From a virus, in IMG/VR virus record IMGVR_UViG_3300009079_000158, positions 1 to 20,480 of that record: a stretch of 20,480 nt of DNA; one strand, written 5' to 3'. The notes under the pieces are model-generated. The model had not been told where the DNA came from. It worked only from the letters and a program-made list of their open reading frames with translations, and did no database searches. The translations under genes and the position numbers were made by a program. Position 1 is the stretch's first letter. Every line of letters begins with the position of its first letter. Shown piece after piece: positions 21 to 17,587 of the stretch.

Positions 21-260
21 ATGACACCAATTAGAAAATTATCAATCGGAACAAACTTTAAAGAGTCAATGAATTATTCTGTTGGAACTGAGCATTCTAT
101 ATACATGAAAGGGGAGGTTAACCCTATAAGAATGGCTATACATTCCATAGAAGAGACAGAGAAGCATTATGTAGTTTACATCAAAAATGAAGACGATGTT
201 TTTCAATGGAAAAAAATACCTAAAAACGATCAGACTTCAGTTGAATTTTATATAGATTAA
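21..260 (+). CDS. Small hypothetical phage protein, 79 aa
   Basis: I do not recognise this protein with certainty. It is short, without signal peptide or membrane segment, and reads as beta-strand rich: alternating hydrophobic stretches around residues 47-54 (YVVYIKNE) lead into a WKKIP motif and a C-terminal VEFYID. The N-terminus (RKLSIGTNFKESM) and the WK/EFYID ending resemble small conserved proteins of Bacteroidetes phages, but that is memory, not a search. The start is the ATG after an A/T-rich leader. It ends two bases before the GroES-like gene, so the two are almost certainly co-transcribed and perhaps translationally coupled. The first 20 bases of the window hold only AT-rich leader. 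Function unknown. Confidence 0.72.
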   Translation: MTPIRKLSIGTNFKESMNYSVGTEHSIYMKGEVNPIRMAIHSIEETEKHYVVYIKNEDDVFQWKKIPKNDQTSVEFYID

Positions 261-262
261 TT

Positions 263-820
263 ATGTTTAGTCCAAATTGTTTTATAATAAATCCTAAAGA
301 CAAAGCTCAATATATAAATACTAAAAAAATTGGTGGTAAAGATTTAATAATTAACACCTCTATAGAAGAAGCTAAAGATGTTCAGAGAATAGGGAATGTT
401 GTTTCGATACCGAAATTGTACAACACAGAAGTGAAAGAGGGAGATGAAGTTGTGGTAAATCATAATGTCTTTAGAATTACATATAATGACAAAGGAATAC
501 CTTTAGAGTCTAGTTTTTACATTAAAGACAACTTATTTTATGTTGAACCAGAACTTGTTTATATGGCTATTAGAAATGGAGAAAAAATAGCTGTTAATGA
601 CAATGTATTTGTAGAACCTACAAAAGAAGTACATGCTGTATTTGGAGAAAGAGAAAAACAACACGTTGGAATATTAAGATATGGAAACAAAGTTCTAGAG
701 GCACAAGGAATAAACGAAGGAGATAGAGTAGTTTTCAGAAAAGGATGTGAATATGAATTTAATATAGATGGAGAAAAACTATATAAAATGTTCACAAAAA
801 GAATCCTTGCAAAATTGTAA
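263..820 (+). CDS. Phage co-chaperonin, tandem GroES-like domains
   Basis: Probable GroES-type lid for the host GroEL chaperonin, comparable in role to T4 gp31, acting in the cytoplasm on phage structural proteins. Residues 108-185 align in order with a whole GroES subunit: a first strand (IAVNDNVFVEP), a loop at 119-135, GILRYGN, a GINEGDRVVF motif equivalent to the vkvGDiVlF strand, then IDGEKLYKM and the terminal RILAKL, matching GroES '..dilA..'. Residues 1-104 repeat the layout: FIINPKD, a GGKDLII loop, RIGNVVSIP, VKEGDEVVVNHNVF, LFYVEPELVYM. At 185 residues it is about twice GroES size (about 97), hence the tandem reading. The GGKDLII stretch could be the mobile loop whose hydrophobic triplet contacts GroEL (inference). 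It sits two bases after the 79-residue gene and upstream of the terminase. Confidence 0.72.
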   Translation: MFSPNCFIINPKDKAQYINTKKIGGKDLIINTSIEEAKDVQRIGNVVSIPKLYNTEVKEGDEVVVNHNVFRITYNDKGIPLESSFYIKDNLFYVEPELVYMAIRNGEKIAVNDNVFVEPTKEVHAVFGEREKQHVGILRYGNKVLEAQGINEGDRVVFRKGCEYEFNIDGEKLYKMFTKRILAKL

Positions 821-838
821 CCTTAAATTTTTTATATA

Positions 839-1147
839 ATGTCTAGATTAAAAGCAGTAACGCAATTAACGTCAAAAACAACTGACGTAACGATGAATGC
901 AAAAAACGGCATCATCACGACTGTAGCATTAACAGATGCGGCAGACACAGAGTTTGAATTTGTTGTAAGCAACAATAAAGTTTATCCGGATTCAAATATT
1001 CAAGCAACAGCAGTATATGGGGGAGCAGGAGTTCCTTTAGTATCTATTGTTTCTAGAGACAAATTCACTTTTACATTAAGAATAGCTAACGTTGGTGTAG
1101 CTGCTTTTGATGCAGCCGTTGGAATTAACGTGTCTATTGTAGGTTAA
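839..1147 (+). CDS. Probable virion surface (decoration or fibre) protein, 102 aa
   Basis: Small, beta-rich, Gly/Ala/Val/Thr-rich protein with no cysteine, signal peptide or membrane helix. Alternating patterns (GIITTVAL, FEFVVSNNKV, FTFTLRIANVG, GINVSIVG) and a central YGGAGVPLVSI look like a phage beta-sandwich or trimeric domain used in head decoration, head fibres or tail fibres. It comes directly after the co-chaperonin and is the last gene before the terminator at 1165. Its codons differ from neighbours: ACG, GCG, GGC and ATC are frequent in the first half, as in a highly expressed gene or one of different origin. Virion role is inference from composition and position; a capsid-binding domain of a head fibre is a specific alternative. 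Confidence 0.6.
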   Translation: MSRLKAVTQLTSKTTDVTMNAKNGIITTVALTDAADTEFEFVVSNNKVYPDSNIQATAVYGGAGVPLVSIVSRDKFTFTLRIANVGVAAFDAAVGINVSIVG

Positions 1148-1229: not shown

Positions 1230-3884
1230 ATGAAAAACCTAAGTCAAGACGTAGAATTAGCTATTATAGATTCTATAAAAGGTATGACTGCCGACATTGA
1301 TATTTTTTCAGTAGACGATGATAAGCTAGACACTTTAATGAAGTCTAGGTTAGATTCTTTTTCTGCAATAAAAGAAATGTTGGTTATGTGGGAAAACTCA
1401 AACAACTCCCCAAGCCACTCTAAACTTAGAACCTATGTAGAAAAGTTAATAAAAGCAGGAGATAATTCTATTGAGGTATTAAGAGATGCTTTAAGAAAAG
1501 ACATTGATTATGAGAAGTTAGATGTAGAAAAATATGGTAGAGCAATAAAAGCAAAGCCTGTTATCTTTAGAGCTATTACACAGATGAACTCTGGATTAAT
1601 AGAGCTAAAATTACAATTAGAATCTGACAAAATCGACTTAAAATCTAGGGAATTTAAAAGAGGATTTCCTGAGAAATTTGCTAATCAAGAATTTTTGCCC
1701 AAAAAAGACTATTATAAAGAATGGTATAATGAAGAAGAAGATGCTGTATTAATAGATCCAAAAGGTACAAAAGGAGAAATTATAGTATTGGAAAACTTAA
1801 AAATACAACTACCAATACCCCCTAAAAACAAAAAGAAAATATTATTTAGCAATCTCCCAAAAGAAGAACAATATTGGAGGAGATCTGAACAGCCAAAAGG
1901 ATTAACACCAGAGAATGAAGACCAATTTACTGACTATATTTTAGAAGAATTTAGAAGACGTAGAGAAGGTGTGTGGTTTATGAATAATGGCAATCCTGTT
2001 TGGCTTACACCTGCTCATTACATGGGGTTAGTTCATAATCAAATGCTAGATACAGGAGGATATAAAGATTTTCGTATGGCTCAATGCTATATGTATTATT
2101 TCTCATTAGCATGTATTGTAGATCCTAGAAGTGTAGGGGAGTTATTTGTAAAAGGAAGAAGAACCGGATTCACAGAAGAAATTTTAGACCATTTAGTTCA
2201 GTATTCAACTTCAGAAAAAAACAACCTAATAGGTATAACTTCTAAAACAGGAAGTGATGCTCAAGAAGCATTTCTTAAATACTCTTACGTTATTCAAAAT
2301 CTCCCTTTCTATTTTCAACCTGTTGTAAAAGGAAAAATAGACGATAGAAATAAAATGGAATTTGGAAAGCCTTCGGATAACACTAGAGACTCTAAAAAAC
2401 AAAGAGACACATCTACTTCTGACTATTTGAATACAAAGGTAGATTGGATGAACACCACTACTCTTTCTTATGACTCTAAAAAACTTAATATGTATTTAGG
2501 AGACGAAGCAGGAAAATGGGAAAGACCAAATAACTACATTGACCATTGGAATAACTTACGACCTACAATGATACCAGGAGGTGTTATTAAAGGTAAAGCT
2601 TTTATCGGATCTACATTAAACCCATTAGATAAAGGAGGTTCTGAGTTTCAGGCATTATATTATGGATCTGATATAACAAAAAGAAATGCCAATGACAGAA
2701 CATCTACAGGACTATACTCATTCTTTCTACCTGCACATAAAAATCTAGAAGACTATACAGATAAATATGGTATTTGCCATGAAGTATTAAAACCTGGGGA
2801 ATTTTTCTATAATGCTTCAGGAATTAAAAAAACTCAAGGAGCTTTACAATATTTAGAAAATGATTTCAAATCAGCTAGAAGTATTAGTGGTAAAGCATAC
2901 AACAATGCAAGAAGATTAGATCCAATAACAATTGACGATGCTTTTAGAGATGAACTTCAAAGTCAATTATTTGATATAGAGAAGATAAACACTCAGTTAA
3001 AATTTAATAGAGAAGAAGAAGTAGAAAACAATCTACTTACTAGAGGTAATTTCTATTGGAAAGATGGTATAAAAGATACAGAAGTAATTTGGAGACCTGA
3101 AGAAAAAGGCAGGTTTTTAGTGTCTTGGATTCCTCCAAAAGAAATGAGAAATAAGTTTAAGATTAAACCTATTTTTGGTATCATGACTAAATGTGCAGTT
3201 TATGACCAAGAAGGAGCTTTTGGATGCGATCCATACGACCAATCAGGAGTTGTGGATTCTAAGTTAGTTTCTACAGAAAACGGACTAGAACATAACTTAG
3301 GATCAAAAGGTTCTTTACATGGAGTTACAGGCATGAACATAGGAGATATTCCTAGTAATTTCTTTTTTCTAGAATATATAGCAAGACCTAAAGATGCAGA
3401 CACGTTTTTTGAAGATGTACTAATGTCTTGTTTCTTTTATTCTATGCCTATTTTAGTAGAGAATAACAAGAAAATGTTATTAAAACATTTTAAAGTAAGA
3501 GGTTACAGAGGCTTCTGCTTAAACAGATTTGACAAACATGCAAATAGATTGTCTCCTGATGAAAAAGAACTTGGAGGTATTCCAAACAACTCAGCAGATA
3601 TTATAAATCAACATTGGACTAGCATTGAATCTTATGTAAATAAATTTGTTGGAGAGTATGTGGCTGAAGACAATGAACAACCTATAAGAGAAGAGGGTGT
3701 GATAGGTAATATGTATTTTAATAGAACTTTAAGTGATTGGTTAAAGTTTGACATCGCAAAAAGAACAAATTTTGATGCATCAATAAGTTCAGGATTGGCT
3801 TTATTAGCAATTAATAGAAACAAATATAAACCACAAGAAGAGAAAAAAACATACGATTTCAAGTTTAAAAAATACAAAAATTAA
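1230..3884 (+). CDS. terL: Terminase large subunit (ATPase and nuclease)
   Basis: Packaging motor that pumps DNA through the portal and cuts it, 884 residues, long as in crAss-like phages, with about 250 N-terminal residues before the ATPase. Visible motifs: deviant Walker A KGRRTGFT at 308-315, with lysine before the first glycine and Phe where Lys is usual; Walker B MYLGDEAG at 421-428 with D425/E426; coupling motif GSTLNP at 460-465; and DPITIDDAF at 564-572, the usual linker before the nuclease. The RNase H-like nuclease has three acidic candidates: D667 in FGCDPYD, E744 in ILVENN, and D849 in FDASISSGLALL. It follows a terminator and -7 box, with the portal 60 bases downstream. No small terminase is evident in the window. 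Identity is secure; family placement comes from motifs and gene order. Confidence 0.95.
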   Translation: MKNLSQDVELAIIDSIKGMTADIDIFSVDDDKLDTLMKSRLDSFSAIKEMLVMWENSNNSPSHSKLRTYVEKLIKAGDNSIEVLRDALRKDIDYEKLDVEKYGRAIKAKPVIFRAITQMNSGLIELKLQLESDKIDLKSREFKRGFPEKFANQEFLPKKDYYKEWYNEEEDAVLIDPKGTKGEIIVLENLKIQLPIPPKNKKKILFSNLPKEEQYWRRSEQPKGLTPENEDQFTDYILEEFRRRREGVWFMNNGNPVWLTPAHYMGLVHNQMLDTGGYKDFRMAQCYMYYFSLACIVDPRSVGELFVKGRRTGFTEEILDHLVQYSTSEKNNLIGITSKTGSDAQEAFLKYSYVIQNLPFYFQPVVKGKIDDRNKMEFGKPSDNTRDSKKQRDTSTSDYLNTKVDWMNTTTLSYDSKKLNMYLGDEAGKWERPNNYIDHWNNLRPTMIPGGVIKGKAFIGSTLNPLDKGGSEFQALYYGSDITKRNANDRTSTGLYSFFLPAHKNLEDYTDKYGICHEVLKPGEFFYNASGIKKTQGALQYLENDFKSARSISGKAYNNARRLDPITIDDAFRDELQSQLFDIEKINTQLKFNREEEVENNLLTRGNFYWKDGIKDTEVIWRPEEKGRFLVSWIPPKEMRNKFKIKPIFGIMTKCAVYDQEGAFGCDPYDQSGVVDSKLVSTENGLEHNLGSKGSLHGVTGMNIGDIPSNFFFLEYIARPKDADTFFEDVLMSCFFYSMPILVENNKKMLLKHFKVRGYRGFCLNRFDKHANRLSPDEKELGGIPNNSADIINQHWTSIESYVNKFVGEYVAEDNEQPIREEGVIGNMYFNRTLSDWLKFDIAKRTNFDASISSGLALLAINRNKYKPQEEKKTYDFKFKKYKN

Positions 3885-6914: not shown

Positions 6915-6942
6915 AAAAAGAGAGCTTTATAGCTCTCTTTTT
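6915..6942. terminator. Bidirectional terminator between convergent genes
   Basis: AAAAAGAGAGCT (6915-6926) and AGCTCTCTTTTT (6931-6942) form a 12-bp perfect stem with loop TTAT. The A-run on one side and T-run on the other allow termination in both directions. The stop codon of the minus-strand gene (6927-6929) lies inside the loop, so the hairpin serves both the portal unit and the inserted gene. Confidence 0.9.
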
Positions 6943-7307
6943 CCATAAGTATAAACAAGTCTTTCTTTTTCATTATCAATAAGGATTTCTGTAAAAGTAT
7001 TTCCATATATAATTAATAAATTATATTTTTCTCCATCAAAATCAATATCAAAAAAAGTATTCATTTCTTCTTTCGTTTCTTTGTCAATATAATATCCTGT
7101 TATTGTATATTTTCTTATTTCTCCATTTATTTTAAAAAGAAAATATTCATTATCTACCAATTCTATAGAAAAAGTTTCGTTTGCTTCATAGCAATCAGTT
7201 TTTGGAGAATCAAGTTTGTAAAAACAAACTTTTGTTACTTCAGGCATAATAACCTGTGAAAAAGCCATAAAAGGCATTAAAACGATAATAAAGATTAAGT
7301 TTCTCAT
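6927..7307 (-). CDS. Secreted protein of unknown function (moron-like), 126 aa
   Basis: The only minus-strand gene in the window, sitting between the portal unit and the capsid unit. The N-terminus is a clear signal peptide: MRN, a hydrophobic core at residues 4-15 (LIFIIVLMPFMA), then a probable signal peptidase I site near AFSQ, a style common in Flavobacteriaceae. There is no lipobox cysteine in the signal. The mature part (about 108 residues) is beta-rich with two cysteines, C28 and C39, that could pair in the periplasm. No enzyme motif is visible. It has its own -7 box and terminates in a shared hairpin, the usual layout of a moron. Possible roles are altering the infected cell's surface or blocking superinfection, but this is inference. 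It may have come from a host genome. Confidence 0.8.
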   Translation of the reverse strand: MRNLIFIIVLMPFMAFSQVIMPEVTKVCFYKLDSPKTDCYEANETFSIELVDNEYFLFKINGEIRKYTITGYYIDKETKEEMNTFFDIDFDGEKYNLLIIYGNTFTEILIDNEKERLVYTYGKREL

Positions 7308-17032: not shown

Positions 17033-17587
17033 ATGATACTAATTAAAGATAATTTTTTTGAAGAAGAAACGTTTTTTAAATTGCAAGATTATGCAGAAAA
17101 AAGCGAATACAATATAGTAACAGCAGGAGATAAACAGTTTTCTACATTACAAGCACCGAGTTACATCTTACCACTAATTCAAATAGATGGTTATGATGTA
17201 ACTCTTTCTTTTATTAGAAGAGCATATAATGGCTTTGATGAAGAACCAAGAATACATTGTGATGGAATTATAATGAATGAAAAAACAAGCTTTGCTACTG
17301 TAATTTACATTAATAATATAGTTAATGTTACTTCAAATGGAACTGCTTTTTATGAACACGAATTACATGGAGCTAGACTTTCAGAAGATGCCTCAGAAGA
17401 TGAATTTAATAGGTTAATTTTAGAAGACAGTAATAATGAATCTAAATGGAGATTAACTGATTTTGTATCTGCTAAACCAAATAGAATGTTGAGGTATGAT
17501 GCCAGGATGTTTCACTCTAAATATCCAAATAAAATTACAGAAGGAATAAGAATTGTATTGGTTGCATTTTATACTAAATCTAAATAA
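17033..17587 (+). CDS. 2-oxoglutarate/Fe(II)-dependent oxygenase
   Basis: Predicted non-heme iron dioxygenase that couples 2-oxoglutarate decarboxylation to oxidation, usually hydroxylation, of a substrate; substrate unknown. The 184 residues show the full facial triad in a double-stranded beta-helix order: HxD at H75-C-D77 (RIHCDG), distal His H161 (ARMFHSKYP) and the 2-oxoglutarate-binding Arg R173 (GIRIVLVAFY), twelve residues later as usual. Between them, ATVIYINN (88-95) and NGTAFYEHE (102-110) fit the core strands of prolyl-4-hydroxylase-like members. There is no signal peptide, so it acts in the cytoplasm. It sits between the muzzle and the cargo genes, directly before a GNAT-like gene, suggesting that a virion or host protein is modified; a metabolic role cannot be excluded. 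Confidence 0.82.
   Translation: MILIKDNFFEEETFFKLQDYAEKSEYNIVTAGDKQFSTLQAPSYILPLIQIDGYDVTLSFIRRAYNGFDEEPRIHCDGIIMNEKTSFATVIYINNIVNVTSNGTAFYEHELHGARLSEDASEDEFNRLILEDSNNESKWRLTDFVSAKPNRMLRYDARMFHSKYPNKITEGIRIVLVAFYTKSK

Follow-up and report, generated by a model that had tools for sequence, protein, structure and literature searches.

A predicted tandem GroES-like co-chaperonin encoded upstream of the large terminase in a phage family

The window (the whole stretch of viral DNA that was analyzed, 20,480 bases) codes for a protein of 185 aa (P0001; positions 263-820, plus strand, ATG start) that is predicted to consist of two GroES folds in series. The ORF list, Pfam, PHROG and a structural model contribute to this assignment. 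The N-terminal GroES-like domain covers aa 1-104 (263-574, plus strand) and the C-terminal one aa 105-185 (575-817, plus strand). A preceding sequence-only reading had proposed a phage tandem co-chaperonin. This stands with respect to the architecture, but the gene as such is already known under the flat name "GroES": it is annotated as GroES/cpn10 in isolated phages, and a PHROG exists. The double architecture in phages is new with respect to the open-access papers searched. Also new here are the widespread family, its constant neighbors and its co-occurrence with a separate one-domain Cpn10.

Fold and conserved features of the two halves

The C-terminal half is recognized by sequence. Pfam Cpn10 (PF00166) matches the whole protein with an E-value of 6.2e-5 and 23.4 bits, which is above the curated cut-off (21.1 bits), and the signal comes from the C half. 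PHROG 3188 also matches this half. In profile-profile comparisons against GroES sequences (about 30 from bacteria and 14 from phages), the C half reached a probability of 95%, or 97% with the wider family. For the N half, the Pfam search gave no Cpn10 match, and the profile-profile match to GroES was weak (probability 18-19%, E about 1e-3), with an alignment in GroES register. A profile search of each half against GroES, as recommended by the sequence-only reading, was thus successful for the C half and weak for the N half. Searches for the N half in NCBIfam and in the PDB (phmmer/hmmsearch) likewise failed or were weak, and adding the distant homolog from phage phi18:3 to the N-half profile brought no gain in detection. 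Because of these results, sequence alone is insufficient to reveal a GroES domain in the N half. Aminolevulinate dehydratase (5LZL), the top PDB match of a first, small profile (E 0.003), was gone with a deeper profile and is considered a chance match.

The AlphaFold2 model of the full-length protein has a pLDDT of 91.8 and a pTM of 0.84, and the N half modeled by itself has a pLDDT of 91.7. When the N-half model was compared to the PDB with Foldseek, the best 27 matches were all GroES/Cpn10 (probability 0.93-1.00, best E 3e-3). For the full-length model, the tandem plastid co-chaperonins from 7EKQ came out on top, matching over the whole length (Cpn20 with E 3.5e-6, Cpn23 with E 3.9e-4); one-domain GroES from a range of species came next, with a TM of about 0.31. 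The two-domain arrangement fits 7EKQ approximately (TM 0.53-0.55, rmsd 7-9). From the separate models and the Foldseek matches against the PDB, a GroES beta-barrel fold is predicted for each half, so that the refuting outcome named by the sequence-only reading, a GroES fold limited to one half or missing from both, did not occur. The domain limits given by the sequence-only reading (1-104 and about 108-185) agree with the model, and its choice of plastid Cpn20 as the nearest analog is backed by the 7EKQ tandem chains being the top fold match. When the N half was compared with the C half as an internal repeat, the profile-profile search returned nothing significant (probability 1.5-3%), and a recent duplication of the halves is thus without support. 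A viral protein of 304 aa (BFVD entry A0A516L046) aligns with the model for most of its length (TMq 0.76) and may carry an additional domain.

The N domain contains a putative mobile loop (aa 20-42; 320-388, plus strand) with conserved hydrophobic residues at aa 28-29 and an S/T-rich segment. Model confidence in this loop has its minimum at aa 31-40 (block mean 75). In the C domain, the segment at the mobile-loop position (aa 119-136; 617-670, plus strand) is predicted to be a tight beta hairpin, is variable in sequence and length, and has a mean column entropy of 1.88 bits, as compared to 1.31 bits for aa 20-42. In the model, no obvious mobile loop is seen in the C domain. When 65 diverse relatives were aligned, a family signature, [HNW]-H-N-x-F, emerged at aa 66-70 (458-472, plus strand), in which H67, N68 and F70 are invariant. 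This signature is absent from the GroES sequences compared here.

Distribution, neighboring genes and a second Cpn10

PHROG 13932 ("co-chaperonin GroES", 200 positions) matches nearly the full length of the protein (E 6.8e-21 over aa 17-184). By tblastn, the tandem gene was found in 77 phage records (E down to 6e-38), mostly under the name "co-chaperonin GroES/cpn10". These are Flavobacterium phages (elemo group, 68), the Cellulophaga phages phi38:1, phi40:1 and Calle, one Maribacter phage and the assembled genome ctfjg026. A distant homolog from Baltivirus phi18:3 was reached via the structure library and via the terminase. At least 578 IMG/VR stretches encode a relative (578 of 600 among the matches listed). 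A plasmid search with the tandem protein gave no match. Contigs L093-L097, from bacterial MAGs named Aliivibrio, Pseudomonadales and TMED88, hold the tandem phage gene; these are likely phage contigs binned with bacteria, so that the MAG host names are untrustworthy. In a published comparison, "chaperonin cpn10" appears as one of the Pervagoviridae core proteins, and the parts of that text considered here do not mention two domains (PMC8776804). In the open-access papers searched, we found no report of a tandem phage co-chaperonin, and for phage GroES records a pairing with a second Cpn10 is unstated there.

The gene order in the window is: a gene for a 79-aa protein, the tandem gene, a gene for a 102-aa protein, the large terminase, portal, capsid-type virion proteins and other structural genes. 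The neighborhood was surveyed with custom profiles in 94 loci. A large terminase is encoded downstream of the tandem gene in all 92 loci with at least 1.2 kb on that side, and a protein of 74-80 aa upstream of it in all 89 loci with room, mostly at a distance of 0-8 bases; these counts are not independent, as some loci are near-identical and two were used in profile building. The position before the terminase, which the sequence-only reading had pointed out, is thus seen in the window and throughout the family. The head or tail client that had been suggested along with it is deduced from gene position only.

The 79-aa protein (21-260, plus strand) is of unknown function, with no match of weight in Pfam or PHROG. 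The tandem ORF starts 2 bases past its stop, and the two proteins are possibly functional partners. The 102-aa protein (839-1147, plus strand) has homologs only in a close clade (L001-L003) and matches the C-terminal third of PHROG 18251. The terminase large subunit (1230-3884, plus strand; PHROG 6681, E 1e-144) is extended by about 150 aa at the N terminus (1230-1690) in the window virus and likewise in elemo and phi38:1. In ctfjg026, phi18:3 and Gundel_1, the terminase is shorter and is preceded by a separate gene for 94-103 aa. It is possible that the extension is a fused small subunit. That the 94-103 aa gene has been fused as the terminase N terminus is without support from a profile comparison (probability 1.5%). 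Further downstream, a DUF6445 protein (PHROG 1644, "minor coat protein") is encoded among the structural genes (17033-17587), and an ORF on the opposite strand (6927-7307; 126 aa) with a signal-peptide-like start lies inside the structural gene block. No homolog of the latter was found in any related locus examined. In the elemo phage (L009/L169, NC_055853.1 48718-59802), a single ORF of about 11 kb, annotated as a structural protein, closes the structural block.

Co-occurrence with other chaperonin genes was counted in 18 records of at least 54 kb that hold the tandem gene (W01-W05, G001, G005, G006, G012, G013 and G050-G057). As IMG/VR completeness is not given, the size limit serves as a proxy for it. 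A separate one-domain Cpn10 (open frame of about 85-103 aa) is present in 17 and GroEL in 12 of these records, which are not independent and represent about five lineages. GroEL was not detected in two lineages, the phi18:3 group (W05, G055-G057) and G054; both types of Cpn10 are present there and, in the phi18:3 record, carry a GroES annotation. The one-domain gene often adjoins GroEL. In the genomes examined, it is found in a different region from the tandem gene, about 7-27 kb away. One record of 54 kb (G012) has the tandem gene and lacks single Cpn10 and GroEL; it may be incomplete. In Gundel_1, which belongs to the same family as phi18:3, none of the three genes was detected. Neither GroEL nor a second Cpn10 was seen in the 20 kb fragment that makes up the window. 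As this record is without the relevant region, their presence in the window virus is assumed from its relatives.

Possible modes of action

From the folds, the Cpn10 co-occurrence and the terminase linkage, all obtained by computation, we infer a ring make-up, GroEL binding, timing and a client. The tandem, Cpn20-like subunit may join the single-domain Cpn10 of the phage in a mixed ring of seven domains that caps phage or host GroEL. We favor this reading tentatively, with somewhat more doubt than confidence. Three tandem chains and one single chain, for example, would supply 3 x 2 + 1 = 7 GroES domains. The GroEL that is capped would be the phage's own where encoded and otherwise that of the host. 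With its gene among packaging and head genes, the tandem protein would probably be produced while heads are being assembled, and the mixed lid might direct the chaperonin to a head or packaging protein of the phage. A more far-reaching version, in which the two proteins form an obligate seven-domain hetero-ring that steers phage or host GroEL to head assembly and has originated independently of plastid Cpn20, is considered doubtful.

The sequence-only reading had also raised a symmetry puzzle, a two-domain lid on a seven-fold GroEL. The puzzle assumes that the tandem protein is the sole lid, but 17 of the 18 large relatives also encode a single-domain Cpn10, so that a seven-domain mixed ring is possible, as in 7EKQ. 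In plastids, one- and two-domain co-chaperonins coexist in mixed rings. The phage gene set has the same parts, and if these meet in one ring, the puzzle would be answered by 3 x 2 + 1. The mixed lid is consistent with the GroES folds in both halves, the 7EKQ match, the N-domain loop with its conserved hydrophobic residues, the pairing with Cpn10 (also in the two lineages in which GroEL went undetected) and the terminase linkage (92/92 loci). Against it stand the little sequence similarity of the N half to GroES and the C domain without an obvious mobile loop in the model, and a lid function explains neither the invariance of H67-N68 nor the strict linkage to the terminase. Moreover, the single Cpn10 is encoded in a different genome region, often beside GroEL, so that the two proteins may act separately. 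For GroEL binding by GroES loops, four of seven are quoted as the minimum (PMC4242682). Because of the predicted C-domain hairpin and its higher variability, one may speculate that only N-domain loops bind, in which case three tandem chains and one single chain would give four binding loops, the quoted minimum.

The main rival is a reuse of the GroES fold at the packaging machine. The tandem protein would then be without GroEL service and would act in head assembly or DNA packaging, e.g., by forming a ring or adaptor on the terminase or portal. We consider this somewhat unlikely. The constant flanking genes argue for it: in 92/92 loci the terminase follows the tandem gene, and in 89/89 the same small gene precedes it. 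So does the H67-N68-x-F70 motif, which does not vary among 65 family sequences and does not occur in the GroES sequences used; neither the flanking genes nor the motif are typical of GroES. The variable, hairpin-like loop of the C domain and the normal GroEL/GroES pair elsewhere in most of these genomes point in the same direction. However, the C half still exceeds the Pfam Cpn10 cut-off, the N domain retains a loop of GroES type, and a single-domain Cpn10 co-occurs even where GroEL was undetected. In phi18:3, virion MS/MS underlies the annotation of the portal, capsid and tail genes, and the tandem homolog is annotated by similarity only, which argues weakly against a virion component. The protein could instead form a lid of its own, with either four tandem chains (eight domains, one being left out) or three (six domains) capping GroEL and serving their own clients beside the ordinary phage GroES. 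Such a homo-oligomer would fit three findings cited in PMC5780408: Cpn20 forms tetramers, GroEL works with concatamers made of six to eight GroES domains, and Plasmodium Cpn20 can stand in for GroES in E. coli. The genomic separation of the tandem and single-domain genes would fit it as well. We regard it as improbable: if only N-domain loops bind, three or four loops would be available, which is at or below four of seven (PMC4242682), and the retention of a single Cpn10 where GroEL is missing is left unexplained.

Two further functions are suggested by the closest solved structure and by gene position, respectively. In 7EKQ, the plastid Cpn11/20/23 complex sits on ClpP, and the phage protein might similarly cap the host ClpP protease and block proteolysis. 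This is very improbable, as it is the co-chaperonin chains themselves that the phage protein resembles, and the phage sequence is without any pointer to ClpP. The immediate proximity to the large subunit in Flavobacterium and Cellulophaga phages could indicate a small terminase subunit. The model, however, has a mainly-beta GroES fold and not a helical DNA-binding fold, and several relatives hold another gene (94-103 aa) in that place, as does Gundel_1, which is without the tandem gene; this function is the least probable of those considered.

If the mixed lid is real, the plastid design would occur a second time, in a large phage family with a one- plus two-domain set. This would offer a compact system to study how a seven-fold chaperonin accommodates an even-numbered subunit and what is gained by a mixed lid. 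The flat "GroES" annotation of dozens of isolated phages is also refined. As hosts (Cellulophaga, Flavobacterium) are culturable, the idea is directly testable.

Comparison with known systems

Within phages, the members of PHROG 13932 (Cellulophaga phage phi18:3 gp096 and phi38:1 gp089, Flavobacterium phage elemoF gp30) belong to the same family and are encoded at the same place before the terminase. T4 gp31 is also a phage-encoded GroES fold and is among the structural matches of both the model and the N half. It has, however, one domain and forms a homoheptamer, whereas here two domains are found plus an additional one-domain Cpn10. Bacterial GroES/Cpn10 (PF00166) shares the GroES fold with both halves and is similar enough to the C half to exceed the Pfam cut-off. 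The phage protein differs from it by its tandem structure, an N half beyond the reach of Pfam, a predicted hairpin in place of the C-domain loop, and the H67-N68 signature.

Two-domain co-chaperonins have been described as a plastid speciality (PMC5780408). Plastid Cpn20/Cpn21/Cpn23 (7EKQ chains Q and R) consist of about 190-210 aa with two GroES domains arranged head to tail, occur together with single-domain Cpn10 and Cpn60, and are the best whole-length fold match of the phage protein. 7EKQ (Chlamydomonas) contains one chain of Cpn11, one of Cpn23 and two of Cpn20, adding up to seven domains. According to PMC8889267, its Cpn11/20/23 forms a heterotetramer that occupies one axial side of the Clp core. 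The identity between plastid chains and the phage protein is only 12-14%. Chains Q and R match GroES by sequence in two stretches, the phage protein only in its C half. Because Pfam finds only this half, the phage protein may work like Cpn20 and yet is not filed as Cpn20. The likeness to Cpn20 is one of architecture.
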